Source of the DNA: a virus
IMG/VR virus record: IMGVR_UViG_3300032053_013224
Span: 1-26,024 of that record
DNA: 26,024 bases
Direction: 5' to 3' (one strand)
The translations under genes were made by a program, and so were the position numbers. Shown piece by piece: positions 4,698-21,901 of this stretch. The notes beneath the pieces were generated by a model that did not search any database, had not been told where the DNA came from, and worked only from the letters and a program-made list of their open reading frames with translations. Position 1 is the stretch's first letter. Each line of letters begins with the position of its first letter.

Positions 4698-4720
4698 TGT
4701 ATCTCTCATTCCATAAAAGT

Positions 4721-4821: not shown

Positions 4822-5283
4822 TTACTGCTGAGTCTCTTCGTTAATTATCTGATCAATAAGGTCAGCCTCTTCTGTAAGACCTTTCTCATCAAGTTTTGTA
4901 GCAATATCTGCTAATTTCTCAAGATAAGCTGTCTTCGCTGTCTTAGTGACTGTCTTTTCAGCAGCACCTTGAACACCCTTAGGCTCTTTGCGAGCGACTT
5001 CTTCAACTACATCGTGAACCTCATTAATGGTCTCAACGTAGCCATCAGCGTTAGGGCCCGTAGCCTTTACATCTGTGGACTTCACATCGTAAACACCTTC
5101 ACCACCTTTACCAGGTGTGACAACTGTTGTGCAGGTTCCACCTTGAGGATGGGCAACTTTTACTTCATCCTGTGTTGGTCCCATCTTACTCTTATCCCAA
5201 TACTGATCCTTATCAAGAGCTTCTTTAATAAGCTTTTGTCCATGATCAGTCTCAAAAAACGCCTTAATAACATTCCAATCCAT
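4822..5283 (-). CDS. Small acidic protein with C-terminal helical module
   Basis: I do not recognise the family. The product is 153 residues. The start at 5283 is preferred because a near-perfect AGGAGG lies six bases upstream; an in-frame ATG at 5310 falls inside the previous gene. The middle is hydrophilic and rich in Gly, Thr, Val and Asp. Residues about 95-115 look helical and charged (INEVHDVVEEVARKE). A KTVTKTAKTA stretch leads directly into the shared two-helix module at residues 121-153 (LADIATKLDEKG, then LTEEADLIDQII), which forms the C-terminus. This is the cleanest copy of the module in the window. The gene lies 10 bases after the 557-residue protein gene and is the last one before the terminator-like hairpin. 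A head-core, scaffold or accessory virion role is possible from context but not shown. Confidence 0.85.
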   Translation of the reverse strand: MDWNVIKAFFETDHGQKLIKEALDKDQYWDKSKMGPTQDEVKVAHPQGGTCTTVVTPGKGGEGVYDVKSTDVKATGPNADGYVETINEVHDVVEEVARKEPKGVQGAAEKTVTKTAKTAYLEKLADIATKLDEKGLTEEADLIDQIINEETQQ

Positions 5284-5293
5284 ACTTAACCTC

Positions 5294-6967
5294 CTATGGT
5301 TGTTGATCAACGTCTTTAATTAAGCGCTCGATAATATAACGGGCTGCATCGTCTACCATACTGGCTTCTCGATGACATCCTTTATTATCTAATTGATTAG
5401 CAATACGCACCAATTTAATTATATGTTTTGCAGCAAGTACCAACTCCTCTTCTGGAACCTCTACCCCTTCGGGAGGTAGAGCGTCTGCAATCTCTGGCTC
5501 TATTTCGGGAGCAAAAGAAGGTAGAGGAGATTTTGGACCTGTTGTTAGATCTTTTTCTATGATCTTTTCTAAGATTTCCTTAGCATTAGACATTCCCTTT
5601 TGTTGTGCATCGTTCTCATATTCATGTAGTAAATCGTCCATAGAATCGTACATATTACCCTGGTCATCAACCCACAAGTCACTCATATCAGCTGTTTCTT
5701 GTGCAAAAATCTCTTGTAATGAGTGTGCAAACAAATTCTTAGAGGGTGGTAACGATTCTGTTTTAAAACGGTAGGTGGGCTTTTCCTCTTTTTGTGGTGC
5801 TTTTTCTACCTGCTTAGGAAGACCACTCTTAGGTACCCAAAATAATCCACCATCTTCTTTTTTAGTTAAATCGCGCTCATCATCATTAATATCAAAACCT
5901 TCACCCTCGCGACCTAACATAAGAACACTAATACCTGGAGCGATTGTCTTATCTTCAAATCCAGGAGACTGTTCTAATACATTTTTAGCAAGAAAAGCGT
6001 TCTCAAACATTGACTGTTTCTGCAAATCCATAACTTTTTGTTGTAATTTTTTCTTAGTTTCTGTTTGCTTTAAGGCCTCATTTTGAGCAATAGACATAAA
6101 ATCGTAATCAGGATTTTGCTCATTCTCTACATAGATAACAATGTTGCCAGACAATGTATAGCTAGAAACTCGGTCAAATGTTTTCTTAGCTCCCAACACT
6201 GCCTTTCCTTTTATAGGACTATCGGGCGTATTACCGTTGGGGTAATCCTTAACAATTTGATCAGGATTAGATGTAGGGCGAGCTTTCAAATAAGGATATG
6301 AATCCTTCATGAGATAAAAGGTCAACAACCTATTAGGACGCATTGTGCCACCAGCATAAGATTTGCCTGTGTAATATCCACCAGAGCCCTTACCCAATTT
6401 ACCCTCTAAGTCAACATATTTAATATCTACAACTCTTTCTAGAAATTTCTTTTGAAGAGCAGGAAAGGCCTTTAATCCACTATAGAAAGCTTTTACAACC
6501 TCTTCGGCAGGAGAGCGTTCACGCGCTCTTTGCTTTTCCTTTCCCTGTTCAAGGTGTTGTTTTAATTCTTCACGTAAACTTTGGTGCTCGTAAACACCCT
6601 TACCAAGTAGCGCATTTACAGATAGGAGAATCTGTTCAATCTGAGGATTGGTATTTGCTTGGGCTTGTAGTTCAGGATAAATCTCTTCCAGACCACGTGT
6701 ATATGTATCAATTAGTCCTTCTTTTTCTTGCATGATTAGATCGTTAAGAATAGTCTCAAAATTCCTAACACTAGAGCGCCAAACGGTACACTTTAAAGGT
6801 ACTTCACTTAAAATGGAGGAACCAGATCTTTCACTTCCGCCTCGACCAATCCCCATCGTCTTATTCCACACTTGAAAAAATCGACGTGATGCAGCCTCTC
6901 TGGTTTCTGATTCCCAACTTTCAACTGGTTTAACCCACTCTTTTGCTTCTTGTGCTCGTTTTTTCAT
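5294..6967 (-). CDS. Unrecognised virion-like protein with C-terminal helical module
   Basis: The product is 557 residues with no family I can name. The start at 6967 is supported by AGGAG seven bases upstream and by the TAATG junction with the preceding gene's stop; a longer form from 6988 lacks a ribosome site. The N-terminal third is charged and helical. A central Gly/Tyr-rich region (GKGSGGYYTGKSYAGG) precedes a beta-like segment (SGNIVIYVENEQNPDYDF). An acidic, Pro-rich linker near residues 455-500 separates this from the end. The C-terminus (about 515-557) carries a variant of the shared module: LVRIANQLDNKG, then CHREASMVDDAARYII. Charged linkers with a terminal module resemble the neighbouring 153-residue and split-gene products, which suggests all are cargo or partners of one assembly. 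Function unknown. Confidence 0.85.
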   Translation of the reverse strand: MKKRAQEAKEWVKPVESWESETREAASRRFFQVWNKTMGIGRGGSERSGSSILSEVPLKCTVWRSSVRNFETILNDLIMQEKEGLIDTYTRGLEEIYPELQAQANTNPQIEQILLSVNALLGKGVYEHQSLREELKQHLEQGKEKQRARERSPAEEVVKAFYSGLKAFPALQKKFLERVVDIKYVDLEGKLGKGSGGYYTGKSYAGGTMRPNRLLTFYLMKDSYPYLKARPTSNPDQIVKDYPNGNTPDSPIKGKAVLGAKKTFDRVSSYTLSGNIVIYVENEQNPDYDFMSIAQNEALKQTETKKKLQQKVMDLQKQSMFENAFLAKNVLEQSPGFEDKTIAPGISVLMLGREGEGFDINDDERDLTKKEDGGLFWVPKSGLPKQVEKAPQKEEKPTYRFKTESLPPSKNLFAHSLQEIFAQETADMSDLWVDDQGNMYDSMDDLLHEYENDAQQKGMSNAKEILEKIIEKDLTTGPKSPLPSFAPEIEPEIADALPPEGVEVPEEELVLAAKHIIKLVRIANQLDNKGCHREASMVDDAARYIIERLIKDVDQQP

Positions 6968-9666
6968 TACTTCACTCCTAAGCGGCATAGAATGCGCGCT
7001 CTTCTTATAAATCTGCGTAATAAGTCAGACCTTGTTTCAGGCTTTTTCTCTTTAGTGTAACGATCAACAGTGATAGCCTCAAAACCACTACATCCCACTG
7101 TAGCTATTTTCATCGATAACTTTACACGATTATGTCGACGCGATGCTACATCTATCTTCTTAATGTCCTTACTTGTCACCTGTGTTGCAATAGGTGCTTC
7201 AGCTTCTAGCCATCCCAAATGCGGAAAATTAATTACTTGTTTTCCAGCACCCTCATTAATAACATCTACTTTCACTGTTTTATCTTCATTGATGGTTATA
7301 TTAACCACTTTGTTGTAACCTTGAAGATTGGGGTCTTTTGAACTAACAAAAGCCACTTGACCCTTAAGGTCTTTTACTTTAGCTTTTCGTTTATCATTCC
7401 AATCAACCCAAGCTAAAGAACCTTCAACATATACCACACGACCATATTTATCTGGCTCAATTACTGAAACAACCTGTTCACCAACCTGAACTGGTAAGTT
7501 CCACTGTTCCGCTGATGGTTCTGGTTCTTCGATTTCAGTATGAATTTCACGTTCAGCTCTCTTTAAGTTCTTAACAAATCGACTATTACCTACAGACTTA
7601 GCTCCATCTCCAATTTTGTTCTCATCACAATGAACAACATATACTTTAGTTCCACCCAAATCACCCTCATTAGGGTCTCTTACAACATACCAATGTTGTT
7701 CACCACATTGTGAGCACTTCCAATCACCTGCCTCATTGTTAACCATTAAAACTTCACGATAAACACCACAATTTGGACAAGTAGCTGAATTGATAGCTAA
7801 TTTATTGTTATCTACATATACCGTAGCTGACTGACCACAATTCCAACAAGTGCGTCCACCAGTCACCGATATCTTTACAGGAACCATATCTTTTTCCCGT
7901 AATCTCTCCCTAATTTCTTTCTCACTTGGCGTATGACCAAGCTCCTCAGCCAACTCTTCAACTACATCTTCTTTACGTAGTTGTTTAAATCTCTTCTGCC
8001 TCTCTACTTCTCTTTCAGTGCTAGTCCAGCGTCTCTTCTGTCTCTTGGTAGGTGGTTTAAAATCAGAGAAAGACCCTCTATATTCATTTGTAACGTTTCC
8101 TATTTCTTCTCTAAAGGCTCTATGGAAAGCCTCAAAAGGAATCTTTACTAGTTTACCAATCTCTGGCAATTTGCCCTCTGTTGGCTCACCTAGTGCCTCG
8201 GGGAACTCTTCATTAAGTCTTTCTTTAATTTTATTGAGTGTTTCCCTTGCAAGTTCTTCTGTGGTTTTGTCATCAGGATCAACACCAAATCGTCTAAATT
8301 GATATAAAATCATATCTGTCAAAGTTGTGTCAGAATAATCAAGATCCTTCTCAGTCTCCGTGGCAACATGAGGTGGATGCAATTGAGGCTGATCAATAAC
8401 CTGGGTAGCTATTCTTTCTACCATTGAAGCCAATTCTTGCTCGCGACTTTGTAGCGCAGCTCCAGGATACATTTTTAAATAAGAATTAATTATTTCTTCA
8501 CGGTACTTAGCACGATCCGTTTCTGTTAAATCAATATCAGTTAACAATATATCTGAATGCTCTTCTATGTGCTTAAAGGGTAATATGCTAGGATTAGAAA
8601 CATTAATCCAGAATTTACCTTGACCATCACACACCATGCACTTCACATAGTCACCCAGCTCATCACTATATCCCTGTGAGGGTCGATGATACGTCTTTCC
8701 ACGAAAAGTAGAAACTGCTGTATCAAACAAGTGTTGCAATCCTTCAGGACTTAAGCGTCTAAGAGCATTTGCACGATCCTTTTCATTCCCTCCTAAGTTC
8801 CTATAAAAACCACTTAAAAAGGTAGTGTCATTTACTAAAGCTTTGTTTCTAGGTGACTCTAACTCTTTCTTGTGCTCTTCCTTAAAGCGAAGGTCGGCTA
8901 ATTCGCCACTGATCTCGTTGATCTCAGATTCAACATCTATCTTAGAGCGTCTCTCTTCTTTTGTTAAATCTTTACGATATTTTGGTTGAGATATTGATCC
9001 ACCTGGATCCATATAGTGCTTCACAAGTTGGGTTTGCAATTCTTGAATCTGAAGAAGCAGTTTCTTTTCTTTTGAAACCTTGCCACCTGGACTCTTTTTC
9101 TTGTCCTGAGGTTTAACAAACCTAAGTGGGGCTGTAGGTTTCTTTTCTTCCTTCTCAAGTTTTTCCCACTCGTCCTCAGCTGCCTCAATAATAAGACCTG
9201 AACTCACATTAGAGGTAACGTCTGCAACTGCATCAGCGTCTGAAGAACCTGGAGCTTTTTGTTGAGCATTGTCTTCAACCTCTCTACGAGACTCTTGTGG
9301 TTCATCAAACTTGGTTTTCTTAAAGGGTTGCTTACGTTGCTCTTTAATCTTCTTAGCTTCCTCACTTCCTGGTTTCACACCAGGAAGAATGGCGGCAGGG
9401 GCTTGACCTCTTTCAATCTGCTTTAGATCGTCTTCTAAATTCAATTTGGGCATATCTAAGGCAATCTTCACAAATACTTGTCGACGAAGTGCTCTTTTTT
9501 GAGTGTCTGACAATCCTGTTCGACTTGCAAAGTCCTCTAGAGCCTCCTCAATATTAGCATAGGAGTTGCGCCCTTCAGTCTTAAGTTTAAGATGACCCAT
9601 ATAGTTAGCAAGAACAATTCGCTTTACTAAACGTGAATTAATAAATTCGTCAAGCCAATTACTCAT
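6967..9666 (-). CDS. Large multi-domain protein: zinc knuckles, HTH-like segment, SH3/KOW-like segment
   Basis: About 899 residues, family not recognised. The first two codons are both ATG; AGGAG lies five bases before the second (9666) and two before the first (9669), so I use the second. Visible parts in order: a helical N-terminus, a charged linker with a short coiled coil (about 200-220), a CMVCDGQG knuckle (C343, C346), and a helical segment EELAEELGHTPSEKEIRERL (about 570-589) that resembles a sigma-factor region 3 helix-turn-helix. Three CxxC pairs follow (C607/C610, C630/C633, C651/C654). Next comes a beta-rich SH3/KOW-like segment (GEQVVSVIEPDKYGRVVYV, about 729-770). The C-terminus is very basic (LLRRFIRRARILCRLG). 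The make-up hints at nucleic-acid contact, but the gene sits among virion-like genes. Its start overlaps the end of the intron-split gene by 8 bases. Confidence 0.85.
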   Translation of the reverse strand: MSNWLDEFINSRLVKRIVLANYMGHLKLKTEGRNSYANIEEALEDFASRTGLSDTQKRALRRQVFVKIALDMPKLNLEDDLKQIERGQAPAAILPGVKPGSEEAKKIKEQRKQPFKKTKFDEPQESRREVEDNAQQKAPGSSDADAVADVTSNVSSGLIIEAAEDEWEKLEKEEKKPTAPLRFVKPQDKKKSPGGKVSKEKKLLLQIQELQTQLVKHYMDPGGSISQPKYRKDLTKEERRSKIDVESEINEISGELADLRFKEEHKKELESPRNKALVNDTTFLSGFYRNLGGNEKDRANALRRLSPEGLQHLFDTAVSTFRGKTYHRPSQGYSDELGDYVKCMVCDGQGKFWINVSNPSILPFKHIEEHSDILLTDIDLTETDRAKYREEIINSYLKMYPGAALQSREQELASMVERIATQVIDQPQLHPPHVATETEKDLDYSDTTLTDMILYQFRRFGVDPDDKTTEELARETLNKIKERLNEEFPEALGEPTEGKLPEIGKLVKIPFEAFHRAFREEIGNVTNEYRGSFSDFKPPTKRQKRRWTSTEREVERQKRFKQLRKEDVVEELAEELGHTPSEKEIRERLREKDMVPVKISVTGGRTCWNCGQSATVYVDNNKLAINSATCPNCGVYREVLMVNNEAGDWKCSQCGEQHWYVVRDPNEGDLGGTKVYVVHCDENKIGDGAKSVGNSRFVKNLKRAEREIHTEIEEPEPSAEQWNLPVQVGEQVVSVIEPDKYGRVVYVEGSLAWVDWNDKRKAKVKDLKGQVAFVSSKDPNLQGYNKVVNITINEDKTVKVDVINEGAGKQVINFPHLGWLEAEAPIATQVTSKDIKKIDVASRRHNRVKLSMKIATVGCSGFEAITVDRYTKEKKPETRSDLLRRFIRRARILCRLGVK

Positions 9667-9927
9667 CATTTCTCCTCAGTAAATTAATTATTTCCCCCGC
9701 CTCTTCCCCAAGACCTTTTTCTAAAAGAGTAAGAGCAAATCTTTGAAGTCTTTGTGCTAAGCTGCTCTTTTTACCAGGAAAGCTTTTAAAAACACCACCT
9801 GGACCTCTTGTCATTGCATCCCAATCTGGAGGATGTGGAAATTTACGAAGTGCTTCTGGTACCCACCAAAATTGTGGATTTCCTTTAAGAGACTCCTGAA
9901 TACAAAACGAATATTGATCACCAGAGT
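9659..9927 (-). CDS. Downstream exon of an intron-split virion-like gene
   Basis: This 3' exon has no start codon of its own. Read from 9927 it gives about 89 codons: SGDQYSFCIQESLKG, FWWVPEALRKFPHPPDW, GPGGVFKSFPGKKSS, and then RFALTLLEKGLGEEAGEIIN near the C-terminus. The stop is TAA at 9659-9661, and the 3' end overlaps the next gene. The last 30 residues are another copy of the shared module (ALTLLEKG, then LGEEAGEIINLL). An in-frame TAG lies a short way upstream, inside the intron, so it needs splicing to the exon at 11026-11503. Under the tentative junction used here the phases match and the spliced product is 248 residues. Codon use and content look fully coding, so this is not decay. 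The splice point may be off by a few to about ten bases. Confidence 0.75.
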
Positions 9928-11025
9928 CCCAACCCTTCGGTTTATCCTATGGCTTTCACCATAAGCCGGACTATACCACTATCTCTTCGAGATACCTCTT
10001 GGTAGTCTCTGGGGCCCACTTACATGTGCCTGCTGATTGTCCATTGTTTACATCCTTTGAATTTTCACACTTCGGTACCAAAGGCTTTAGGAGTTTCCAG
10101 CATATTCGAGGTTTGCTTACCATATCACTATGGTAAGGGGCAAGATTATTTACCCAAAATATCATTAAAACTAAATTTTTGCATACCTCCCCCTATTAGC
10201 TATTTTATAAAGCATTGAACTTTCTATATAGGGTGTAATTAAATCGATAAGTTTCTCAGCCTCAGCTACTAGAAACTTAGTATAAGGATATCTTTTACCA
10301 TTTTTATATTTGGAAGTGTATTCAATTTTACAATTTACATTCCATTTTTCCTTAAAATATTGAATAATAATATCATGTTCTTCAACAGAAAAGTCACAGG
10401 TCATCAACCTAACACCACCACACTGCACTTTGTGGGCATCATCTTGATACCAAATTGCAATACTCAATAATGTTAACTTATTTAAGTTATTCCAAGATAC
10501 ATGCTTCTTGTCAGTGTAAAACTCTCTACGAAGAGCCTCTAAAACTTGAAAAAAACTTGTATTTATACGACACTCTGTCTTACTAGTCTTTTTACTTATT
10601 GGATAAGAAAAATGAGGCTGTAATCTTTGTAGACCTTTTGCTTTCCATTTAAGATACTGCTCTTGCTTTATTCCATGTCCTTCAATAAAGTTAGCGGTAA
10701 CATTATTTCTTGTATACAAACCACCATCGCCTAGAATACTACCTCTGATTATTTGCTCTTCTTCTTGAGTAAGACAATCGTCAATCAAATCAAGATTGTG
10801 GCCAACTCTGATTCCCTCACTTACACTTCTGATTTGAATTCCATACTTTTTCATCCATCTATGAATTGTCAAACCACTAATTTCCATTTCTTTGCCTATT
10901 TGGTGAGTTGATTTCCTATTTTGAGTATACTCTTGCTCCAAAAAAACCTCAATTGGTAGCCCTACTCTCTCTTCAATCTGTTTGACCTTACGCATACCTT
11001 TATATTTATTATACATCCTCAATCC
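9928..11025 (-). ncRNA. Group I self-splicing intron
   Basis: All four conserved core elements occur in order on the minus strand. P (ATGCTGGAAACTCC) is within 10083-10103. Q (GGACAATCAGCAGG) lies at 10029-10042. R (CAGAGACTACC) is at 10001-10011. S (GGTATAGTCC) is at 9968-9977. TGCTG/CAGCA gives P4 and GACTA/TAGTC gives P7. Two P9-type hairpins follow: TTATGG...CCATAG, then AACC-GAAG-GGTT. The core is at the 3' end, so the endonuclease ORF sits upstream of it, in the P1-P2 region. Boundaries are tentative. A short P1 (exon ATATT with intron GATGT) places the 5' site after 11026, and a 3' G at 9928 restores frame through a TAC codon. An alternative 3' G at 9919 is possible. Presence of the intron is secure; the ends are not. 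Confidence 0.88.
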
Positions 11026-11034
11026 AATATTCAT
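10171..11034 (-). CDS. LAGLIDADG homing endonuclease with N-terminal HTH, intron-encoded
   Basis: A 287-residue double-motif LAGLIDADG enzyme that would cut an intronless allele and promote intron spread. An N-terminal DNA-binding helix-turn-helix covers about residues 27-66 (EVFLEQEYTQNRKSTHQIG, then LTIHRWMKKYG). The first LAGLIDADG helix is IRGSILGDGGLY (96-107, acidic D103) and the second is SIAIWYQDDAH (191-201, D198/D199). The pattern matches the LAGLIDADG_2 type of intron endonuclease. The ATG at 11034 has GAAGG five bases upstream but lies in the end of the upstream exon, in another frame; an in-frame ATG at 10995 would be wholly intronic. Splicing would remove the gene from mRNA if the upstream start is used, so expression would come from unspliced transcript. 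Both catalytic acidic positions are present, so the enzyme looks intact. Confidence 0.92.
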   Translation of the reverse strand: MNIGLRMYNKYKGMRKVKQIEERVGLPIEVFLEQEYTQNRKSTHQIGKEMEISGLTIHRWMKKYGIQIRSVSEGIRVGHNLDLIDDCLTQEEEQIIRGSILGDGGLYTRNNVTANFIEGHGIKQEQYLKWKAKGLQRLQPHFSYPISKKTSKTECRINTSFFQVLEALRREFYTDKKHVSWNNLNKLTLLSIAIWYQDDAHKVQCGGVRLMTCDFSVEEHDIIIQYFKEKWNVNCKIEYTSKYKNGKRYPYTKFLVAEAEKLIDLITPYIESSMLYKIANRGRYAKI

Positions 11035-11503
11035 TATCGCCTTCAGAACTTTCCAGTACCCCCAGTTGTTGTAGTTTCTTCAAAAACCTACTCTCTTTAT
11101 AAAGATTTAACTTGTGACGAGTAGTAATCTTACGAAAGATTAGATTAACATCAGGATTAATCTCTCTACGACATCTCTCCAGAAATTCTTCGGACAAGGA
11201 ATTATAAAAAGAAGAATCGTCTGAAGAAGAAACAGCAAAGGATCCTATAGCATATAGGGCACCTTGCCCCGCTAAAGTGCCCGGTTGCTCTACATAAGAT
11301 GCAACAATTATATTAGACCGAGAGAGTTCATCATAAAAAACATTGGCATAAATCAATGCTTCATTATAATTCTCTGTTAAGTGACTAAACCCCTTAACAA
11401 TATCTCCCTGTTGATCTGATACTGACACCTTGTAATAGAGTGTCTTTGCATCATCACAAGCTTGTAAATTAACTGTATAATCTGGATTGCCTGAATTAAT
11501 CAT
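11026..11503 (-). CDS. Upstream exon of an intron-split virion-like gene
   Basis: This exon starts with ATG at 11503, three bases after the previous stop, and encodes about 159 residues before the proposed splice site. The same frame continues into the intron and stops at 11009, so an unspliced message would give a 164-residue truncated protein. The N-terminal two thirds look like a compact alpha/beta fold (KTLYYKVSVSDQQGDIVKGF, EALIYANVFYDELSRSNIIV). The last part is charged and helical (FRKITTRHKLNLYKE). I do not recognise the family. Joining to 9659-9927 through a TAC codon gives EGDNEY-YSGDQYSF, a 248-residue product ending in the shared helical module. It follows the 220-residue protein gene and precedes the 899-residue protein gene. 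Confidence 0.72.
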
Positions 11504-11506
11504 AAA

Positions 11507-12169: not shown

Positions 12170-12189
12170 AATAATTATACTCCTTGTCC

Positions 12190-13449
12190 CTATTGTTTCT
12201 TATTTTGCTTCCTATACTCATTTATAAGACTCATTATATGTTGACGTTGTTGAGGATTTAAATTTTTAAGATTTGGCCTTATTGCTTCAGATGTGCCACC
12301 CTTAGGTACTACCCCTGGTGCTGCTCCTGGTGCTGCTCCTGACTGCTCTTCAACTGAAGGTTGAACCTCTGGTGTAATAGCCTGAGGTGTTGTGGTGGAA
12401 GTGGGTTGGATGGGTTGTTGTTCTTGCTGGGGTTGTTGTCCTTGCGCTGGCTGTTCAGGAACCTGTGCCACAATCTGCCCTAGTTGTTGTATTGATTGAA
12501 GAACGCCACTCAAATCTTGTTGAAAGGCATCTATTTCAGATAAAAACGTATCAACATAAGAGTTGGCATCTGTTATATTCTGACGAGAGGATTGTAGTCG
12601 TCCATATGCGATGTTTAATTTATCCATAAGATCCCAATGAATTTTAGAGACATTCTTATCATTAAATACTGTATCTTGAGCTCTGCTCCACCACTCACTT
12701 GCTGGAGGTAATGCAGACAGACGTCGTAACGATGCAGCCATTTCTTGTGCTTGCTTAATAAAAATACTATCAACCTCATGAGCTAATACTGTTTCGCCTT
12801 GACCCTCTAAGTTGTTTGCTATTTTGAGCAATTTCTCTAAGAAATTGATACTACTAACAGGATTGATCGCCTGAGTTTCTTCAGGGTCAAATGGCTTTTG
12901 ATCTGAAGCAGGCTTGGGAACAGACTGTTGTTGCTGCTGAAATTGCTGTTGCATTGTACGAGCTGCTTCACCTGCCTGCTTAGCACTCATCATGGCCTGT
13001 GCTAAATCTCTTTGAAGATAACGAATTACATTCTTAAGATCTCTAGTGTATTCGGGCTTACCCATATTCTTCCAAACATTACTTAACATTGTGCGAGCCG
13101 AATTGATTTGTTTAATTAAATTCCAATGATTTTGTCTGAGTGAAGTTAAGTGCTTACGAAACTCTGGATTTGTTTCTCTTTCAGTTGAAAACCAATCCTT
13201 AAGTTGTTGTCCTTTTTCCTTAATCCACTGCCATTGTGCTTCTTTAATTAAAGTGTTATCGAGAGATGTAGCCTCTGCTCTGAAGCCAATCTCGTCAAGA
13301 GAGTTAGCCAATGTAACAATCTGTTGAATAATGTCAGCGTGTTTCTCTTTTTTAAGACCTGTTGATGTTTGACAAATTGCGAAAGCCTCTGATTCTGATT
13401 TGCCAGAATCCATTACTTTCTTAATGCAATCCATTAACTTCTTAGGCAT
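12190..13449 (-). CDS. Virion-like protein with two module-headed repeats
   Basis: About 419 residues from the ATG at 13449, which has AAGGAG four bases upstream. A longer start at 13467 lies inside the previous gene and has no ribosome site. The N-terminus (KLMDCIKKVMDSGKSESEAF, then AIC) matches a short Cys-containing motif often seen in phage proteins of unknown role. Two copies of the shared module follow, at about 38-72 (VTLANSLDEIG, then FRAEATSLDNTLIKEAQ) and 203-235 (LLKIANNLEGQG, then HEVDSIFIKQAQ). Each is followed by a similar helical domain with a W-x-L start (HWNLIKQINSARTML; HWDLMDKLNIAYGRL) and a later Q/R-DL pattern. A Gln-rich linker (about 165-185) joins the repeats, and a long Pro/Gln/Ala tail (about 330-395) ends in a short basic helix. 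Repeat architecture is clear; function is unknown. Confidence 0.87.
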   Translation of the reverse strand: MPKKLMDCIKKVMDSGKSESEAFAICQTSTGLKKEKHADIIQQIVTLANSLDEIGFRAEATSLDNTLIKEAQWQWIKEKGQQLKDWFSTERETNPEFRKHLTSLRQNHWNLIKQINSARTMLSNVWKNMGKPEYTRDLKNVIRYLQRDLAQAMMSAKQAGEAARTMQQQFQQQQQSVPKPASDQKPFDPEETQAINPVSSINFLEKLLKIANNLEGQGETVLAHEVDSIFIKQAQEMAASLRRLSALPPASEWWSRAQDTVFNDKNVSKIHWDLMDKLNIAYGRLQSSRQNITDANSYVDTFLSEIDAFQQDLSGVLQSIQQLGQIVAQVPEQPAQGQQPQQEQQPIQPTSTTTPQAITPEVQPSVEEQSGAAPGAAPGVVPKGGTSEAIRPNLKNLNPQQRQHIMSLINEYRKQNKKQ

Positions 13450-13459
13450 CTCTCTCTCC

Positions 13460-14152
13460 TTACCCATATAAACTATAATAACTGAAATCGTGATATTGTT
13501 GATAAGAACGATCTAAATTAATTGTATTAAAACCTTCAAACAACCTTGGATAAATAGGAGACCCTCGATATAGCTTGGGCACTTCTCTAGCCCCTATTTC
13601 AGTTCCAAATGTGCAATTTACTGCTTCTTGATCTGACAAAACCTGAGCAGCAAACGGACACTGACTACCAGTTTTATATTTCTCATAAACCCTTTTATTG
13701 TGTTTCATTTCAGGACCACGAGGCTCCATGTCTGTAACAGCTGTACCCACATCTTGACATGCTTGAGGAATATTGAGACCAAAAGGACACTTGTCAGAAG
13801 TATTATCTTTTCTTATGTCTGCTTGCTTACAAAAACTACAAGCACTTGCAACGGTATGTCTTCTTCTGTAGGAATCTAAAATAGCATCAAGGGCACTTTT
13901 TTGCTCTAATGCTTCTAATTCTATTATCTTATCTATCTTGTTAGATAACACACTTAATCCTTGGCAATCTAAATTGTCAGCTATTTTAATTAAATCATCA
14001 ATGGGTGTGCTATAATAACTTATTGCTTCATTAAGATTCATTCCACTAGCCTCTGCACTAATTTGAGTTAATTGTGTAATCTGATCAGCAAGGGAGTGCA
14101 ATCCCTTGGCATCTACTATATTGGCTAGTTGAATAAGTTTTTCTCTGCTCAT
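13460..14152 (-). CDS. Cys-rich virion-like protein with two N-terminal helical modules
   Basis: The product is 230 residues and its ATG overlaps the preceding stop as TAATG. Two shared modules lie at the N-terminus: residues 1-35 (LIQLANIVDAKG, then LHSLADQITQL) and 51-85 (LIKIADNLDCQG, then LSVLSNKIDKII). After these comes a Cys-rich region: CSFC (C105, C108), CPFGL (C122), C132, CPFAA (C165) and CTFG (C180). The repeated C-[PT]-F-[GA] pattern could bind zinc or an iron-sulfur cluster. The C-terminus is aromatic (YQQYHDFSYYSLYG), like many phage structural proteins. I cannot name a family. Position between two other module-bearing genes supports membership of the same assembly. Confidence 0.87.
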   Translation of the reverse strand: MSREKLIQLANIVDAKGLHSLADQITQLTQISAEASGMNLNEAISYYSTPIDDLIKIADNLDCQGLSVLSNKIDKIIELEALEQKSALDAILDSYRRRHTVASACSFCKQADIRKDNTSDKCPFGLNIPQACQDVGTAVTDMEPRGPEMKHNKRVYEKYKTGSQCPFAAQVLSDQEAVNCTFGTEIGAREVPKLYRGSPIYPRLFEGFNTINLDRSYQQYHDFSYYSLYG

Positions 14153-15033
14153 TATACACCAGGTTGCGCGGGTCTCTGTTGTATCCGTGGTTCTGTGGTT
14201 TTTGTCACCCTTGCTTTCATGGGTATTTGACTTAGAGTTGTATATAACTCTACTAACTTCTTATGAATACCATCGAGATCATCTAAATCTTTCTTAATAA
14301 TATCAACTACCATACTAGCTTCTGAATTGTGATTCAAACCAATTAGTGTATTTCTGATTTGCATCATTTTATCTAGATGAATACCATAATTAAAAAGATC
14401 TATTTCTTCTTTTATGAGGACTAAAGCTTGATTAAGGCTGGGACCCTCCTGTGCAGTCTTAATTATTTTCTTGTCACTAAAACTTCTAATAACAGAAACA
14501 CTACCTAACATAATGCTTGACAGTTCAACCAAACCTGCTTTACGAAAAATCTCTCCTGCTCTCTGATGACGCGCTTCCATTAATTGAGGACGCTTGAGCA
14601 TATTAACTTCTTCCTTGAGCTTCTGTAGAATGCGACCAATATAAAGTCCCTTATCGTCACTTCCACTTAGCAAACCTTCATCAAGTATCTTATTTAAAAT
14701 GCGTTCTGCTGAGTTAATTCGGCTTCTAAGCTTTTTCTTGAGGTCGTCCAGTTGCCTTTCTTTATCAGCTACATTATAGTCGTAGGCTACTTTTTGCATA
14801 TTCATATCTTGTTGTCCTCGTTTAGTCTGATTGTAGTGCCACCACTTATGAAAACTTTCTCGCTCCTGATAGTCCCACTTACGAGTAAAATACTCAACAA
14901 GTTCCTTATCGGAATATTTTGGATAATCATGAGCTGCTATTTTCATTTTAGTAGCCACATCTCTCCATTTTTCTAAATTGAAGGGAGACTTTGTTGGGCT
15001 TCTAAATCCTTGTGGGTACGCTTCTTTGTCCAT
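14152..15033 (-). CDS. Helical virion-like protein with internal module variant
   Basis: The product is 293 residues, almost entirely predicted helical by eye. TAAGG lies seven bases before the ATG, and the gene follows the 247-residue protein gene with a 2-base gap. The N-terminus is Trp/Lys-rich (KWRDVATKMKIAAHDYPKY; FHKWWHYNQTKRG). A charged coiled-coil-like stretch follows (about 90-150). KKIIKTAQEG (189-197) is one of the short KTA segments shared with neighbours. A divergent module sits at about 219-250 (LDKMMQIRNTLIGL, then NSEASMVVDIIKK). The tail is rich in Pro, Gln, Arg and Thr. Function is unknown. Module similarity is weaker than in other copies but keeps the EA and the hydrophobic-Asp-hydrophobic spacing. 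Confidence 0.85.
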   Translation of the reverse strand: MDKEAYPQGFRSPTKSPFNLEKWRDVATKMKIAAHDYPKYSDKELVEYFTRKWDYQERESFHKWWHYNQTKRGQQDMNMQKVAYDYNVADKERQLDDLKKKLRSRINSAERILNKILDEGLLSGSDDKGLYIGRILQKLKEEVNMLKRPQLMEARHQRAGEIFRKAGLVELSSIMLGSVSVIRSFSDKKIIKTAQEGPSLNQALVLIKEEIDLFNYGIHLDKMMQIRNTLIGLNHNSEASMVVDIIKKDLDDLDGIHKKLVELYTTLSQIPMKARVTKTTEPRIQQRPAQPGV

Positions 15034-15035
15034 TC

Positions 15036-15779: not shown

Positions 15780-15787
15780 GTTTTACC

Positions 15788-17416
15788 TTACTTCTTAGGG
15801 GGCAATCCTATTTCCTTTGATAACTCTTCCTCTGTAACTTCTATTTCATCTTGTGATGGTAATGAGGAGGGTGGTGCGACAGGAGGAGGTGCTACCACGG
15901 GAGGAGGTGTAGCTGCTTGAGCTTTCTCTACGAAAGAATAAGCTTCACGAACAGCTTCCATAAAGGGCTTACCTTTAAATACGCCATCCACTACTAAACC
16001 AATAATCTTTTTGGAATTTTCTTCACCTCTTAGGGCTAGATCTAAATCGCGAGCAAAACGATACTCAAGATTGTAAGCTTTCTTCTCAAGAGAAGAAGTT
16101 CTCATACCTGAGCCTGCTAGGAGTGATTGCCACAAATAAGCAATCAACCGCTCTACCGTGGATTGACTCTGTGTCTTAGCAATCATTTGTGCTTTAGTTT
16201 TGGGATTAATCTTAGTAGATTCAAGAAAGTTAATTGTTTCCTTCTGAGCGTCTTCAAGAGGTTTGTCCTGACCCCAACTCTTTGTTTGTTCCATAAATCG
16301 TTCTAGTGCTGACTTTTTCTCATATTCTGGTGTAGGACTTAATTTAACTGGCTGAAGAGCTGTTTTCATAAAACCCTTCACACTACTCTTACTTAGAAAT
16401 GGATGTGGGCTTTGATAAAAATCAGGCCTATCAGGTGTCATTTCCGAAATACTACCACCATTATGCTCTACACCATCTTGTGTTGTAAAGCCTTCTGCAT
16501 AATTGTACACAGACCTGTCAAGTGGACACTGATAAACATAATCAGCGATACGATAAAGAGAAGTACCAGGATGATCTGGACAATAACGACTATTTAATGT
16601 TGTCTTGCCAAAATACCCCTCTTCAGCCTTCTTTGTAAGACTAGCCTCTGCGTGCAACTCAACTGCTGATTTGAAGTTTGTATCTTCGTTCTTCTTATAA
16701 GAAGGAAGCTTCTTCTTTGAATCCTCATCATATGTACCACCACTAGCGCGAGTGGTTTGTTGATTAGGGGTGTCAAGAAAGGTCTTTTGAGGAAAGGTGG
16801 TGTTCCAATTGCCTGTTGTTTGGTTTTGAACACCAATCTTGTGCTCAACTTCATGTCCACCAGTATAAGTGAAGGTTCCACCTTCAATTGGACACTGATA
16901 AATTCCATCGGAAACCCTACGAAGCATTACGCCAGCATGTTCTGGACAATAGCGAGTCCATTCTTCTGGTGCAACATAAGTAGTATGATGACGCTCTGGA
17001 AGAGGACCATAAACTGTATCAGCTGTCTTTGTTTGTTTATTGGTAGAGCCAATTGTATATCCTTCACCCTTTGCTTTGTTTATTTCTGTCAAAGGATTAG
17101 GATAATCGACACCTACAACACGACTACCATTGTAGTCAACCCAATTAGCTACAGCCTCGGCACCTGCTTTGATGGCTCCATCACCAAACTCTAGGGTTCT
17201 AAAGCGATTGTCTTTCATCCACTTCTTTACCCATTGAATGAAAGCGGGTCCAACTGGGATACCATCTGGAACTCTAGGATTAACTTGAGGATTCCAACGT
17301 TCACGTGCCTGTTGAAGCCAGATTGTGCCAATCTCAGCAACAAGTGAGTCTTGAGGATCCACCTGGGCTAATTTCCGCCTTTTCTCAGCACGAACCTGTA
17401 ATTGCTGTTTATCCAT
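15788..17416 (-). CDS. Virion-like protein with duplicated CPxH zinc-binding repeat
   Basis: The product is 542 residues. AAGGAG lies six bases before the ATG. Two near-identical zinc-knuckle repeats are visible: RYCPEHAGVMLRRVSDGIYQ with CPIEGG (C157, H160, C175), and RYCPDHPGTSLYRIADYVYQ with CPLDRS (C279, H282, C297). They are 122 residues apart. Each has three obvious metal ligands; the fourth is not clear. Between them are polar Thr/Asn/Gln-rich stretches typical of extended virion parts. KGFMKTALQP (347-356) is one of the short motifs shared with neighbouring proteins. The C-terminal part is helical and ends in a Pro/Val-rich linker and an acidic tail. No family recognised; probably structural from size and context. 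Confidence 0.87.
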   Translation of the reverse strand: MDKQQLQVRAEKRRKLAQVDPQDSLVAEIGTIWLQQARERWNPQVNPRVPDGIPVGPAFIQWVKKWMKDNRFRTLEFGDGAIKAGAEAVANWVDYNGSRVVGVDYPNPLTEINKAKGEGYTIGSTNKQTKTADTVYGPLPERHHTTYVAPEEWTRYCPEHAGVMLRRVSDGIYQCPIEGGTFTYTGGHEVEHKIGVQNQTTGNWNTTFPQKTFLDTPNQQTTRASGGTYDEDSKKKLPSYKKNEDTNFKSAVELHAEASLTKKAEEGYFGKTTLNSRYCPDHPGTSLYRIADYVYQCPLDRSVYNYAEGFTTQDGVEHNGGSISEMTPDRPDFYQSPHPFLSKSSVKGFMKTALQPVKLSPTPEYEKKSALERFMEQTKSWGQDKPLEDAQKETINFLESTKINPKTKAQMIAKTQSQSTVERLIAYLWQSLLAGSGMRTSSLEKKAYNLEYRFARDLDLALRGEENSKKIIGLVVDGVFKGKPFMEAVREAYSFVEKAQAATPPPVVAPPPVAPPSSLPSQDEIEVTEEELSKEIGLPPKK

Positions 17417-17430
17417 GACTCACTCCTTCA

Positions 17431-19086
17431 CTATGTAAGACGAATTTGATTAGTTACAATTGCTCCCTTATATGAATCATCGTGCTGCTTGTTCCAATCA
17501 AGATGAGCCCTTACACAAACGCCACCTTGTCGAACAACACCACTACACTGAGTGTGTAATAAATTGCAATAATCTGTTGAAGACTGGCGCACTGCACGAC
17601 CAGACGATGTAATGATTGTACCCCTTGGCTTATAGTAAGCACAACAATTGCAACGTTCACTAAAATTAACTGAGGCTTGCTCAATCCAATTCTGATAATC
17701 AGATACTGCAGTATTGTGTGCATCTGAGCCAAACTTGTCTTGAACTAGATTTAAGGCCTCACGTGCAATAGAATGCTTGTGATCAAATGCAGCTCTGTGA
17801 ATGATCTTACGAAGCTCATTGTATGACATGTCTATAAAGGCTGCACTATAGCGAGGTACTTCAATTAACTCTTCTTTGTTTAACATAGCTTCAACTTGAG
17901 GGCGATCCATCTTCCGAACTTCACCATCATCAGCTATGAAAAGGGAGGGAAACATTACACTGCCTTCCTCTACTTCAACTGGCACTGAAACCTCAACCTT
18001 ACCCTTTTTCGTCCAAAGAGTAGAGTCAAAGGTCATTCCCCTGTCGTTATCGCCAGCAAAACGCGTATCACATTTAAATCCAAGCTTTTTGAATTCATCG
18101 GTAATTAATTCGCGACCTACCTTTATGGTCTGCTCAGGATAACGAGAAGCCTTACGAATAACAGCATCTTCTAGAATGGTATCAATATTAGCCAACTCTG
18201 GGCTTAGTTGACTAAGTTTTTGAGGAACAATATCCTTTATATAGGCTTCAACTTCATCAACCTCTAGTGAATTAGCTTGTTTAATCTCTCTGGTGGTATC
18301 AGAAGTTAAATTACCACGAATAGCATTGGCTGCTGTTAGATCACTCTTATCTTTTGAATTATCTACAAGTAGTTGCTCTATTCCATCCTCATTAAATGCA
18401 TAAAGCTTATCTCCTGCCAGATCTGCAAAGACGTCAGGCACCTCTGGTAGGCCATCTTTTACAGCTACAGGGACATTGATATGTGTAGTTCCCTTAGTTG
18501 TAGGAAATGAAGCCAAATAGAGTAGTGCTGCCTTTGCACAGTGTTTCAGTGAGGTGCGAGCCCCTTTGCATCCAATAGACTCGAGTTGAGTTCGCACTAA
18601 TTCACTACCAGCTTTCACTAGTTGTGGATTATGAGCAGCAAAGCTAACTGGGCTACCAATTCCCAGTGCCTCAACAGCTTGATCTAGAGCCTCTTCATGC
18701 TCATCAACCTCAATGGATGCTCGCTTAGCTGTAGACAGATCCCTATCCATCTGATCATAAGGAATACGCTCAAGAACTGTCTTCTTTAAGCTTTCCTCTG
18801 TGGGTGGCAATAAGTCTGCAAAAACAGACTTAAAGGAGCTTTGTGGATTTAATCCCGCAAAGCTATTATAAAGACTATAAACCTCCTCAGCACTAACCAT
18901 GCGATTAGGTTCCTGTGCTGCCATTCTTTCAATCGCTCCACCCACATTACGAATAACGGGGTCGTGACGATGTGTGTTTTCCACACCAGCAAACCGTTGC
19001 ATTAGATCACTTACAGCGAAAACTCTGAAAGTGTCCACAGCCAACAGATCAGCCAAACCTCGGATGATCTCATTCATGTTATCCAT
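17431..19086 (-). CDS. Virion-like protein with internal domain duplication and Cys-rich C-terminus
   Basis: The product is 551 residues. A strong AAGGAGG lies seven bases before the ATG. The centre is duplicated: residues about 120-241 and 268-405 align. Matching pieces are IEVDEHEEALDQ with LEVDEVEAYIKD, VKAGSELVRTQLESIGCK with IKVGRELITDEFKKLGFK, INVPVAVKDG with VSVPVEVEEG, and FNEDGIEQLLV with MDRPQVEAMLN. The C-terminus (479-524) has six cysteines (C479, C481, C482, C507, C514, C524) in a basic region, suggesting metal binding. The N-terminus is helical (IIRGLADLLAVDTFRVFAV). I cannot assign a family. The size, the duplication and the flanking genes suggest a virion or head-core component. 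Confidence 0.87.
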   Translation of the reverse strand: MDNMNEIIRGLADLLAVDTFRVFAVSDLMQRFAGVENTHRHDPVIRNVGGAIERMAAQEPNRMVSAEEVYSLYNSFAGLNPQSSFKSVFADLLPPTEESLKKTVLERIPYDQMDRDLSTAKRASIEVDEHEEALDQAVEALGIGSPVSFAAHNPQLVKAGSELVRTQLESIGCKGARTSLKHCAKAALLYLASFPTTKGTTHINVPVAVKDGLPEVPDVFADLAGDKLYAFNEDGIEQLLVDNSKDKSDLTAANAIRGNLTSDTTREIKQANSLEVDEVEAYIKDIVPQKLSQLSPELANIDTILEDAVIRKASRYPEQTIKVGRELITDEFKKLGFKCDTRFAGDNDRGMTFDSTLWTKKGKVEVSVPVEVEEGSVMFPSLFIADDGEVRKMDRPQVEAMLNKEELIEVPRYSAAFIDMSYNELRKIIHRAAFDHKHSIAREALNLVQDKFGSDAHNTAVSDYQNWIEQASVNFSERCNCCAYYKPRGTIITSSGRAVRQSSTDYCNLLHTQCSGVVRQGGVCVRAHLDWNKQHDDSYKGAIVTNQIRLT

Positions 19087-19098
19087 TGAAAACCCTCC

Positions 19099-20463
19099 TT
19101 AACTAGAAGATGTTATTCGTTGTACCAGTTTACAACGCTTTTGTTGTCTTACCTTAATGCCCAGTCTTTCTAAAGCTATATTTTTTCTAGCCTGTTGGCT
19201 AGGTTTTTGTTGTTCTTCTTCTCTTTGCTCTTGCAAATACTGTTTCCACGCCTCTTCTTCTTTTTGTTCTGCTTCTTTTTGTTCTGCTTCTTTTTTTTGC
19301 CGTTCAATTATCCACTCTAATCGTTGTTCCCATTCTTCTGTGGTTGCTGGTATGGGTAACTTTTTTGGGTGTCCATGCTCCTTTAGGTAATCTAGCTCCT
19401 CTTGCTCCCGTTGAGCCTTCATTTCTGCTTTCATTCTTGGATAATCGACCTCTTCCCATTGCTTTTGCTTAATTTTCAATTGTCGAGCCGCTTCTTGCTT
19501 TTCACGAAGAAACTCAAGATCCTCTGCCTTACTCAGCTCATCTTGTTTTTCACGGAAATCCTTTTTCTGTTGAAAATTTTGTTCTATATCTTTGAGAGCA
19601 CTAGGAGTCAAAGTTGATTGAAATAATAGTTCCTGTATCTTTGTCATTGCCTTCTGTAGAGCGTGAGCTGATGGCATTAGAAATGCATTACCACCTAGAG
19701 ATATTAAACGTCCAGGCTGTGTGTCAACACCAAACAAATTTTCTACCATTTGGACTTGATCAGACAAGGCTGACCTTGTTGTTCTATCTTTCTCTTTCAT
19801 TTCCATGTTCCTTACTTTTTTCAAAAGAGCATTAGAATGTTCAAGAATAGAACTATCTGCACTAAAATATTGTTGATACACATGTAAAACCCGATTGTGA
19901 ATATCTTGTAATTGTTGAGCAACTGTTTCTATATCAAAAGTGGCTCTTTTCTTTAATCTTAAAGAACTTACCTTAATTTCTTCCTCAGGCTCAAAATCTT
20001 TTTTATATAATGTTTCTGGACGTAAACGATAATGTTCATATTCTTTACGCCGACGATCTTCTTCATATTGAGCAGGAAAATGTTCCCTATACCATTTGGT
20101 ATCTTTGAGAACGCTCATCAATTTTCCCCACCACGTCTTCTCTAATTTTCTAGATATATCACCACTACCTCGAATAACCGCTATAAAACGTCCAAGATGG
20201 TTATGAGATCTATTTAGTTCTGCAATAGATTCATCTATATCCCCTATTAGCATTTCTCGCATGGAAATCTCACTATCTTGATCTTTTATTGGTTCTTGTG
20301 CTTGTAATCCCGAAAGAGATTGGGCAACCAACTTTTCTTTATTGTTCTCAATATCTCGAACAACCTCACCAATGTCGGCTTGAATCTCCTCCAAGTTAAG
20401 TTGGACTTCTTCAAGTACTTTAGTTAGGGATCCAGATGCTTCTTTCTTTATATTATAAATCAT
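19099..20463 (-). CDS. Long coiled-coil, highly charged protein
   Basis: The product is 454 residues, dominated by heptad-like helical stretches (VLEEVQLNLEEIQADIGEVV near the N-terminus; Lys/Glu/Gln-rich from about 295 to 430). A small less-charged patch near residues 250-275 (PGRLISLGGNAFLMPSAHAL) may be a globular element. The C-terminal region is low in complexity and contains an exact 15-base tandem repeat encoding EAEQK twice. The basic end (IKVRQQKRCKLVQRI) could touch nucleic acid. The start overlaps the preceding gene by 11 bases, with AGGGG about ten bases upstream. A scaffold-like, tape-like or core role is compatible but not supported by any specific motif. The shared helical module is absent. 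Confidence 0.85.
   Translation of the reverse strand: MIYNIKKEASGSLTKVLEEVQLNLEEIQADIGEVVRDIENNKEKLVAQSLSGLQAQEPIKDQDSEISMREMLIGDIDESIAELNRSHNHLGRFIAVIRGSGDISRKLEKTWWGKLMSVLKDTKWYREHFPAQYEEDRRRKEYEHYRLRPETLYKKDFEPEEEIKVSSLRLKKRATFDIETVAQQLQDIHNRVLHVYQQYFSADSSILEHSNALLKKVRNMEMKEKDRTTRSALSDQVQMVENLFGVDTQPGRLISLGGNAFLMPSAHALQKAMTKIQELLFQSTLTPSALKDIEQNFQQKKDFREKQDELSKAEDLEFLREKQEAARQLKIKQKQWEEVDYPRMKAEMKAQREQEELDYLKEHGHPKKLPIPATTEEWEQRLEWIIERQKKEAEQKEAEQKEEEAWKQYLQEQREEEQQKPSQQARKNIALERLGIKVRQQKRCKLVQRITSSS
19261..19290 (-). repeat. Exact 15-base tandem repeat, two copies, in the coiled-coil gene
   Basis: The plus-strand unit TTTTTGTTCTGCTTC occurs twice back to back; on the coding strand it reads as EAEQK-EAEQK. 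The unit is a multiple of three and keeps the frame, so copy number could vary without disrupting the protein. Similar GAA/CAA-rich sequence continues on both sides. Confidence 0.9.
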
Positions 20464-21901
20464 AATTCAATAACCCCTGAAAGGTTTTCAAGATTCTATC
20501 AAAGGCTTGCTCTGTTGTCTCATCACCTCTGACTCCAGGTGTGAGTGTATAATGCAATGTTTGAATTAAACGAGATATGGATCTATCGTACCACTCTTCC
20601 CAAATTACACTATCACGTGTAGAAGACCTGTATCCCGAATGCTGAAGTTGAACATCTTGAGTTTGTTTAACCCCCCCTGCAATACGATCAATGTCAGACT
20701 CAATTTCACCTTTAAGATCTGTGATATTACGTTGATTATTGTCAATAAACTTTTGAGTCCTTTTCTCATCAGTTCCCTTACTTATATACATACCAAAAGA
20801 AATTCTTTGTTTCAAGATAGCATCCTGAGTATAATTGTTTACCCATCTTTCTAAGATATTAATATCACCCTCTATTTGATTGAATTTACGATCCATATTT
20901 CTATAATTATAAATATCGGGAGGTTTACCAGGGCTCTCAAGAGCACTATATTCAGCTCTCGTTAAAGGTGAATTGGTTTGAATATCAACTTGATGTATGT
21001 TTTTAACAATTACATCAAAACGCTCTTCCAAACTCTCTATTCGATCATAAAGTGCCTGCCTTTTGGTTAACTCAGTCACTAAAAACTTTTGTTGTGCAAG
21101 GGATTTTTCTAAGGCTGAAACAACGTCGGGAGCCATTCTGTCTATTGTTTGCTCCTCAACCTCCTTTGTGCCCACAAAGGGTAATAAGCCATCTGTGTAG
21201 GCCTTACATAGTAAGGAATAAAAGGAAGACTTAGGAGACAAACTGCGCGGGAAAAGAGCTTTGAGTTTTTTAATTCCCTCCTCAACATCATCTTCATTAA
21301 ACCTTTTAATGGCACCTTCTATATCGCTAAGCACCTTCACACCTTGTCTAATTGTCTTCTCTATGTCCACATTAGAGGAAGATCTACCTTCTTCTCTGAT
21401 TTTTGCATGTACCGCTAGTTTACCAAGAGTTCTCTTTACCTGTTCTATGGCTGTCAATGCCTCTCTAACACTTTGTTGTTCTGTGTGGGCTGGCAGCAAT
21501 CCTGACAACGAGCGTGACAACTCTTGTACTTCTTCAATGAAACTACGATAACGCGTTTCGTATTTTGTCCCTTTATATCTCGTATTCAAAGTTGGTATTA
21601 AATATTGTTCAATGTAAGCATTAAAATGCTTTTGTAACTCTTCAATAGCACGTTGCCTTGTCATGCCAAACAAAGGAGTTCCAGATATTGGAAAGCTAAT
21701 GTCTACACCTTTTATTAGATCACTTGGCTTAAACTTCTCAAGCACCATTACAATCTTAACTAACTGAGCTATCATTGGCTTCTCTTTAAGGGCCAAAAGT
21801 TGAGCTTTCTTTTCTATTAATTTATCAATAGTGTTGGCTTCCCTTTGAAGCCCCAAAAAGTCAAGCTCATCAGCTATATGTAAAAGCTCAGTAATGTTCA
21901 T
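20453..21901 (-). CDS. Helical virion-like protein with N-terminal helical module
   Basis: The product is 482 residues. The ATG is one base after the preceding stop. The N-terminus is a strong copy of the shared module (residues 1-34: LLHIADELDFLG, then LQREANTIDKLIEKKAQ), ending in a KKAQ segment like those after other copies. The rest is mostly helical, with several coiled-coil-like stretches (EALTAIEQVKRTLGKLAV; FLVTELTKRQALYDRIESL) and an aromatic C-terminal part (SVIWEEWYDRSISRLIQTL). No catalytic motif is visible. Having the module exactly at the N-terminus suggests a detachable targeting or docking tag. That is inference from its mixed placement across proteins. Confidence 0.86.
   Translation of the reverse strand: MNITELLHIADELDFLGLQREANTIDKLIEKKAQLLALKEKPMIAQLVKIVMVLEKFKPSDLIKGVDISFPISGTPLFGMTRQRAIEELQKHFNAYIEQYLIPTLNTRYKGTKYETRYRSFIEEVQELSRSLSGLLPAHTEQQSVREALTAIEQVKRTLGKLAVHAKIREEGRSSSNVDIEKTIRQGVKVLSDIEGAIKRFNEDDVEEGIKKLKALFPRSLSPKSSFYSLLCKAYTDGLLPFVGTKEVEEQTIDRMAPDVVSALEKSLAQQKFLVTELTKRQALYDRIESLEERFDVIVKNIHQVDIQTNSPLTRAEYSALESPGKPPDIYNYRNMDRKFNQIEGDINILERWVNNYTQDAILKQRISFGMYISKGTDEKRTQKFIDNNQRNITDLKGEIESDIDRIAGGVKQTQDVQLQHSGYRSSTRDSVIWEEWYDRSISRLIQTLHYTLTPGVRGDETTEQAFDRILKTFQGLLNYDL

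Follow-up and report, generated by a model that had tools for sequence, protein, structure and literature searches.

A helical hairpin on otherwise unrelated proteins of uncultivated large phages: a candidate docking tag for the phage head

Why should one short helical segment recur in proteins of a phage that otherwise show no resemblance to each other? The question is raised by a 26-kb viral contig from IMG/VR (IMGVR_UViG_3300032053_013224; the whole stretch of 26,024 nucleotides, which has the same extent as its record, is here called the window), for which an earlier reading of the letters alone had reported a roughly 33-residue module in nine places and seven proteins, here referred to as the original prediction. 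The predicted genes of the window are located on the minus strand and include a DnaG-like primase, a RecA-like open reading frame (ORF) and a terminase of the GpA type, with gene starts throughout being guesses from the first ATG. Our data directly support a family of dispersed modules with a bias toward the protein ends and a predicted hairpin fold, a link to a lineage of phage capsids and proteases, and the enrichment in head gene regions of a short motif, h-x-K-x-A, in which the module often ends. We tentatively hypothesize that the module is a capsid-targeting docking hairpin.

All nine stretches, distributed over seven proteins, were open in the predicted reading frames on the minus strand, and the spacing LxxIAxxLDxxGxxxEAxxID was as claimed. 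Since the nine copies would be re-found trivially by a profile derived from them, we built an independent hidden Markov model (HMM) from 32 copies taken from other viral contigs, leaving out the window and both of its close relatives. Five copies were clearly identified by this model (those beginning near 4825, 5297, 13234, 13898 and 21800; scores in Table 1), the copy at 12745 was borderline, and the copies at 9662 and 14048 are recognized mainly by their orthologs. The concern that such a profile would match random helical proteins equally well was not borne out, as shuffled proteins scored below the five clear copies, with a top score of 10.9 bits over 100 shuffled window proteomes, close to that of the borderline copy. 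An enriched 35-row alignment (A2), which includes six of the window copies, recovered seven of the nine at E ≤ 0.01. In the two closest contigs (terminase 68–71% identical), most copies have counterparts in the orthologous genes, and the orthologs of the copy at 9662, RFADNLTEQGYSEEAEQ and KFANILTERGYQEEAVQ, retain the pattern. The ninth candidate, at 14284, had no match to the independent HMM and is possible but unproven because its single ortholog, MMKIRGHLIALGRNSEADTILDII, retains the G and the EA, and not the A or the D. The window thus contains five or six safe copies and likely eight.

The module also recurs far outside this contig and commonly ends in [IL]xKxA, neither of which was part of the original prediction. 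A seed search with IAxx[LF]DxxGxxxEAxx[IL]D, written as a degenerate DNA pattern, identified 35 stretches in viral contigs versus 19 in a collection of bacterial and archaeal genomes (257 billion bases). On visual inspection, some 30 of the 35 viral matches are family members, whereas nearly all 19 matches in the genome collection are unrelated. Searching whole records with A2, we found the family in 31 of 34 records, most of which contain several copies, with a maximum of 21 in a 223-kb phage and 18 in a related record. Pooled and made non-redundant at 80%, the set comprises 163 copies in 150 reading frames, most of them unrelated in sequence, consistent with the idea that the carriers have little else in common. 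Likewise, searches of Pfam, PHROGs, NCBIfam and the PDB gave no convincing match, in agreement with the claim that the module belongs to no named family, and no description of it was found among the papers that could be searched. A tblastn search of 50,697 isolate phage records identified no convincing member: a natural copy gave two chance matches only and the consensus peptide gave none, perhaps due to low-complexity masking. One record, G008, contains DnaJ, IscU-like and cytochrome-like ORFs, a possible bacterial signal, together with ORFs that by eye are tail-fibre-like or of replication type and with tmRNA and tRNA genes, as in giant phages; it was retained in the set as a presumed giant phage. 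Module copies were also observed in two contigs (L044, record G032) of a metagenome-assembled genome (MAG) of the Rickettsiaceae and at the C-terminus of a 2309-amino-acid (aa) ORF in an Armatimonadetes MAG (L049, record G033). These may be prophages or binned phage DNA.

The two helices and the conserved D-x-x-G turn of the original prediction are reproduced in an AlphaFold (AF2) model, in which residues 2–15 and 19–34 form the two helices of a hairpin with a predicted local distance difference test (pLDDT) score of 96.7; the score for a 564-aa carrier was 38. Six positions (A10, L13, D14, G17, A22 and D26) are conserved in 89–97% of the copies, partly by construction, since several of these columns were fixed by the seed pattern. 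Two of them, D14 and D26, are near-invariant polar residues that close helix 1 and lie within helix 2, respectively, which suggests a binding surface. We considered the possibility that the module is a single tetratricopeptide repeat (TPR)-like unit and hence a relative of the peptide-binding repeats of the TPR proteins. The predicted hairpin is as long as a TPR unit and spaces its key L, A, L, G and A residues, small or hydrophobic, in the same way, and the generic hairpins aligned by Foldseek include TPR units such as those of OGT and SycD at 0.4–0.9 Å, albeit with E above 1. However, no Foldseek match reached E ≤ 0.001, the module profile scores −3.3 bits on the TPR consensus, and a weak TPR_10 match was obtained for only one of 35 members (E 0.11), so that membership is not supported by either profile score or TPR matches. 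Furthermore, the module is solitary, with no tandem arrays seen, and D14 and D26 are not among the TPR signature positions. A TPR origin therefore appears improbable to us.

The positions of the copies argue for a portable, often terminal tag, as had been proposed. About half of the 163 copies are N-terminal (84), another 24 are C-terminal and 55 are internal, compared to approximately 19, 19 and 124 under random placement, and some carriers contain two or three copies. A domain that is selfish or spreads passively, lacks a common function and arises from a short DNA segment duplicated among genes might also be dispersed in this manner, and copies are indeed more alike within genomes than between them (mean likeness 0.47 versus 0.38), an excess that is driven by G008. 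Yet, the six positions are strongly conserved across copies that are only about 38% alike, in part through seed selection, and a preference for the protein ends is not what such spread would give. Moreover, orthologous copies are retained while the linkers diverge: in the orthologs of ORF 5294–6988, the body of the protein and the module are conserved and the P/E-rich linker between them varies. We give this explanation very little credence.

Most carriers have no recognizable function. Weak or good matches identify Dps/ferritin-like proteins in two phages, as well as SprT-like metalloprotease, peptidoglycan-binding-like, glycine-zipper and GYF-domain proteins, and a pooled scan of the carriers named an ArdC N-domain and Erv1/Alr, not tied to a single protein. 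In many phages (L237:1297-2274, L230, L234 and L254), a zinc-ribbon-like domain (STRYSPDRVGVQA...DPYTNKIYDYNEGF) is directly followed by the module, and a similar domain with no module after it is present in the window (Table 1). In the relative G002, module carriers are interleaved with a head cluster comprising a portal-like ORF, recognized by eye, an 1108-aa protein with a head maturation protease at its front (phrog_18299, E 9e-16), and the gene for the major head protein (phrog_2522, E 1e-70). The capsid family was found in 10 and the protease in 15 of the 32 records examined, and in seven of the nine records where this terminase was found, carriers are its immediate upstream neighbors. 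When the search started from the capsid instead, modules were found in 20 of the 24 uncultivated records of the lineage and in none of its isolates, namely Bacillus phage G (whose capsid is 51% identical), I3, SKa-4 and HRDY3. In the smaller contigs the carriers cluster with the terminase, portal, protease and capsid genes; in the giant genomes they are scattered. Both the gene order and the types of carriers fit with the carriers being virion proteins, which we consider plausible.

A second line of evidence concerns the end of the module. The K-x-A tail is present in 67 of the 139 N-terminal and internal copies versus 3 of the 24 C-terminal copies (Fisher p = 0.0013). Outside the modules, which were masked, h-x-K-x-A occurs about twice as often as expected in the proteins of most module phages, and near the capsid gene of 16 phages, in 15 of which modules were detected by the whole-record search, it occurs 362 times versus 132 expected (2.7-fold, z 18.8). 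Permuted motifs occur there at about the expected frequency, and a bacterial control gave 15 versus 22 expected. In phage G, which has a protease homologous to that of the lineage (E about 1e-49), the enrichment is confined to the portal and protease cluster at 0–20 kb (z 6.3), being weak at 20–40 kb, where the capsid gene is located (z 2.0), and absent from the remaining 360 kb scanned. Several phage G proteins (L134, L259 onward) have short N-terminal leaders (MKRLIKKAS, MSKKISRLKKTA and MKRLISKTAA), which are candidate cleavage sites. Likewise, a 2192-aa ORF in G002 (L103:6544-13122) contains [AGS]x[LV]K[SGR]F[TC]KxA (SLKxFTKxA) about seven times between domains, and its 5′-nucleotidase domain begins directly after FTKIA; this is possibly a phage polyprotein, of which the first ORF of the window is a probable truncated ortholog. 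To judge from these sequence patterns, the association with h-x-K-x-A favors a targeting signal that can be removed over a structural part that stays in place. We also asked whether C-terminal modules are preceded by the motif, and found only a few such cases, among them ORF 4822–5310 with TVTKTAKTA; at 5 of 20 overall, this is near background.

One may object that the hairpin is a permanent docking or oligomerization domain that attaches to a common partner or to other hairpins and is never removed, that its terminal h-x-K-x-A is no more than the final turn of helix 2, and that the motif elsewhere is unrelated. In support of this, the AF2 helix continues through residue 34, two or three copies in some proteins would suit multivalent binding, and the K-x-A tail is missing in half of the N-terminal and internal copies. 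It is however difficult to explain in this way why the tail is far rarer in C-terminal copies that otherwise follow the same sequence pattern, and why the motif is enriched independently outside the modules and, in phage G, only near the head genes. Nothing in the data pointed to self-oligomerization, one of the roles considered in the original prediction. We take a permanent domain seriously as an alternative, while doubting it.

Our preferred hypothesis is instead that the module is a docking hairpin for capsid targeting that often precedes a site for the maturation protease; our doubts still slightly outweigh our belief, and docking, partner, packaging and cleavage are all inferred. The 33-residue helix-turn-helix hairpin would serve as a docking tag on each carrier and bind a common partner in head assembly; this could be the shell of the capsid or else the very large maturation protease, through its scaffold-like tail. 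The docked carriers would then enter the prohead, where the h-x-K-x-A at the end of the hairpin may be recognized by the head maturation protease, such that the tag would often be cut off after docking in proteins that continue beyond the hairpin. In C-terminal tags the motif is mostly missing, and it is found again between the domains of at least one giant candidate polyprotein. Extending this further, the mostly uncultured lineage related to phage G by its capsid and protease could have a two-part head address system, with a docking hairpin and a cleavable h-x-K-x-A linker that also parts polyprotein domains, by which dozens of enzymes are loaded into and released in each particle. We regard this broader scenario as possible and clearly speculative.

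Head-targeting elements are known from other phages, such as the capsid targeting sequences of T4 (PMC9026906). Like the module, the T4 element, which is found on IPI-III as a propeptide cut by gp21, is a short segment on otherwise unrelated proteins in a phage with a head maturation protease, and in both cases the segment is followed by an actual or candidate cleavage site. In contrast to the module, with its 33 residues, its N-terminal, C-terminal or internal placement and its candidate site h-x-K-x-A, the T4 element is about 10 residues long, N-terminal and has another cleavage motif, and the two show no sequence relation. Residues 271–300 of the P22 scaffolding protein form a hairpin that binds the coat protein (PMC9965877). 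This segment of gp8 and the module are both two-helix hairpins of approximately 30 residues, that of P22 being U-shaped and docked inside the procapsid and that of the module being predicted. The P22 hairpin is located at the C-terminus of a single protein and makes basic contacts to acidic coat residues, whereas the module is present in many proteins and has the near-invariant acidic residues D14 and D26; no sequence relation to P22-type scaffolding was found in the PDB, Pfam, PHROGs or NCBIfam. Finally, several head and ejected proteins of the giant phages phiKZ and SPN3US are cut by the prohead protease at a common motif (PMC10052503), but their propeptides are mostly 111–254 residues long with a different cleavage motif, and a common hairpin has not been reported. 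Membership of the module in the T4 or P22 element family is thus not supported, and both parallels demonstrate that a device of this kind is feasible.

Several observations weigh against a head-targeting role. The tagged genes are scattered in the giant genomes, as could be expected if a tag is carried by many proteins, and a module copy is present in only 10 of 47 capsid-gene loci of at least 10 kb. In the phage richest in modules (G008/G012), neither the capsid nor the protease family was found, with deeper profiles applied to part of G008 only. A tRNA nucleotidyltransferase, no obvious virion protein, is among the carriers. About half of the N-terminal and internal copies end without K-x-A, phage G has the motif without the module, so that the two are separable, and the shuffle statistics are uncorrected for shared ancestry and helix composition. 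The scatter and the tRNA nucleotidyltransferase, along with the shortness of the carriers, could also mean that the tag directs proteins elsewhere than to the head, to a compartment of the host or the phage, or that it is a regulatory signal for protease delivery or the control of turnover. This is at odds with the clustering of carriers with head genes in the smaller contigs and with the resemblance of the Dps-like, peptidoglycan-binding-like and glycine-zipper carriers, by weak matches, to packaged or ejected proteins, and we consider it unlikely.

If the docking hypothesis is true, the hairpin profile would flag proteins inside the phage head, which are otherwise hard to predict, and provide candidate cargo or ejected proteins for dozens of uncultured large phages, most of whose proteins are unnamed. 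Furthermore, h-x-K-x-A would predict maturation cleavage sites that are testable in the isolated Bacillus phage G, and a compact hairpin tag that is usable at either end of a protein could serve as a tool to load foreign cargo into phage heads.

Table 1. Module copies and associated features in the window. Bit scores refer to the independent HMM and E-values marked A2 to the enriched alignment.
Feature	Position	Strand	Evidence
Module copy at C-terminus of ORF 4822–5310 (YLEKLADIATKLDEKGLTEEADLIDQIINEETQ), preceded by TVTKTAKTA	4828..4926	-	47 bits; A2 E 2.6e-15
Module copy at C-terminus of ORF 5294–6988, after a variable acidic P/E-rich linker	5330..5425	-	31 bits; A2 E 1.6e-14; ortholog alignment
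Divergent module copy at C-terminus of frame 9662–9946	9662..9751	-	5 bits, alone not significant; orthologs in two contigs
Internal module copy in ORF 12190–13467, end FIKQAQ	12742..12846	-	10.5 bits, borderline; A2 E 8e-15, in training set
Near-N-terminal module copy in ORF 12190–13467, end LIKEAQ	13231..13335	-	24 bits; A2 E 5.7e-14
Second module copy in cysteine-rich ORF 13460–14152	13907..14005	-	18 bits; A2 E 3.1e-14
First (N-terminal) module copy in ORF 13460–14152	14078..14143	-	6 bits; A2 E 1.7e-4
Very divergent, unproven candidate copy in ORF 14152–15033	14284..14379	-	Not found by independent HMM
N-terminal module copy in ORF 20453–21901, end IEKKAQ	21800..21898	-	38 bits; A2 E 1.1e-15
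Terminase large subunit, GpA type; two module carriers directly upstream	2853..4709	-	PF05876 E 6e-12
Large ORF cut by contig end; repeated [KR][GSA]FxK[TE]A between segments	1..2853	-	Probable ortholog of 2192-aa G002 ORF
Zinc-ribbon-like ORF without module; three h-x-K-x-A (SVKGFMKTA, ASLTKKA, SSLEKKA)	15788..17416	-	Module directly after similar domains elsewhere

Frame 9662–9946 in the window (95 codons) has no good start codon, and a LAGLIDADG_2 ORF (10171–11034, E 4e-28) is located upstream of it. The orthologous frames L104:1839-2171 and L105:8472-8759 likewise lack a start and are situated near LAGLIDADG-like ORFs. The frame probably represents the 3′ portion of a gene that is split, likely by an intron; a search of the region 9662–11503 against Rfam gave no known intron family.

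A few further observations concern the proteins of the head cluster. The complete proteases of the lineage (L097-L127, for example L102:11893-15237 and L127:9138-11981) are mostly 950–1770 aa and have a long, acidic, scaffold-like tail, in which AY[FM]QG is repeated twice in many of them. The proteases of phage G (gp19, 300 aa) and G003 (529 aa) are shorter, and both of these phages are without the module; a tie between module presence and protease length was nevertheless not decisive, as two module-free fragments have long proteases. The idea that the N-terminal helix of the capsid protein represents half a module was dropped (HMM about 0 bits, hhalign probability 1%). By eye, a common segment, aHPxGG ... 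dAHiETv, may tie the small carrier ORF 4822–5310 to the tail of the maturation protease L102:11893-15237. Intein-like insertions were also seen by eye in the maturation protease gene of G016 (L115:3806-9136) and in the portal-like gene of G002 (L102:18820-19998).

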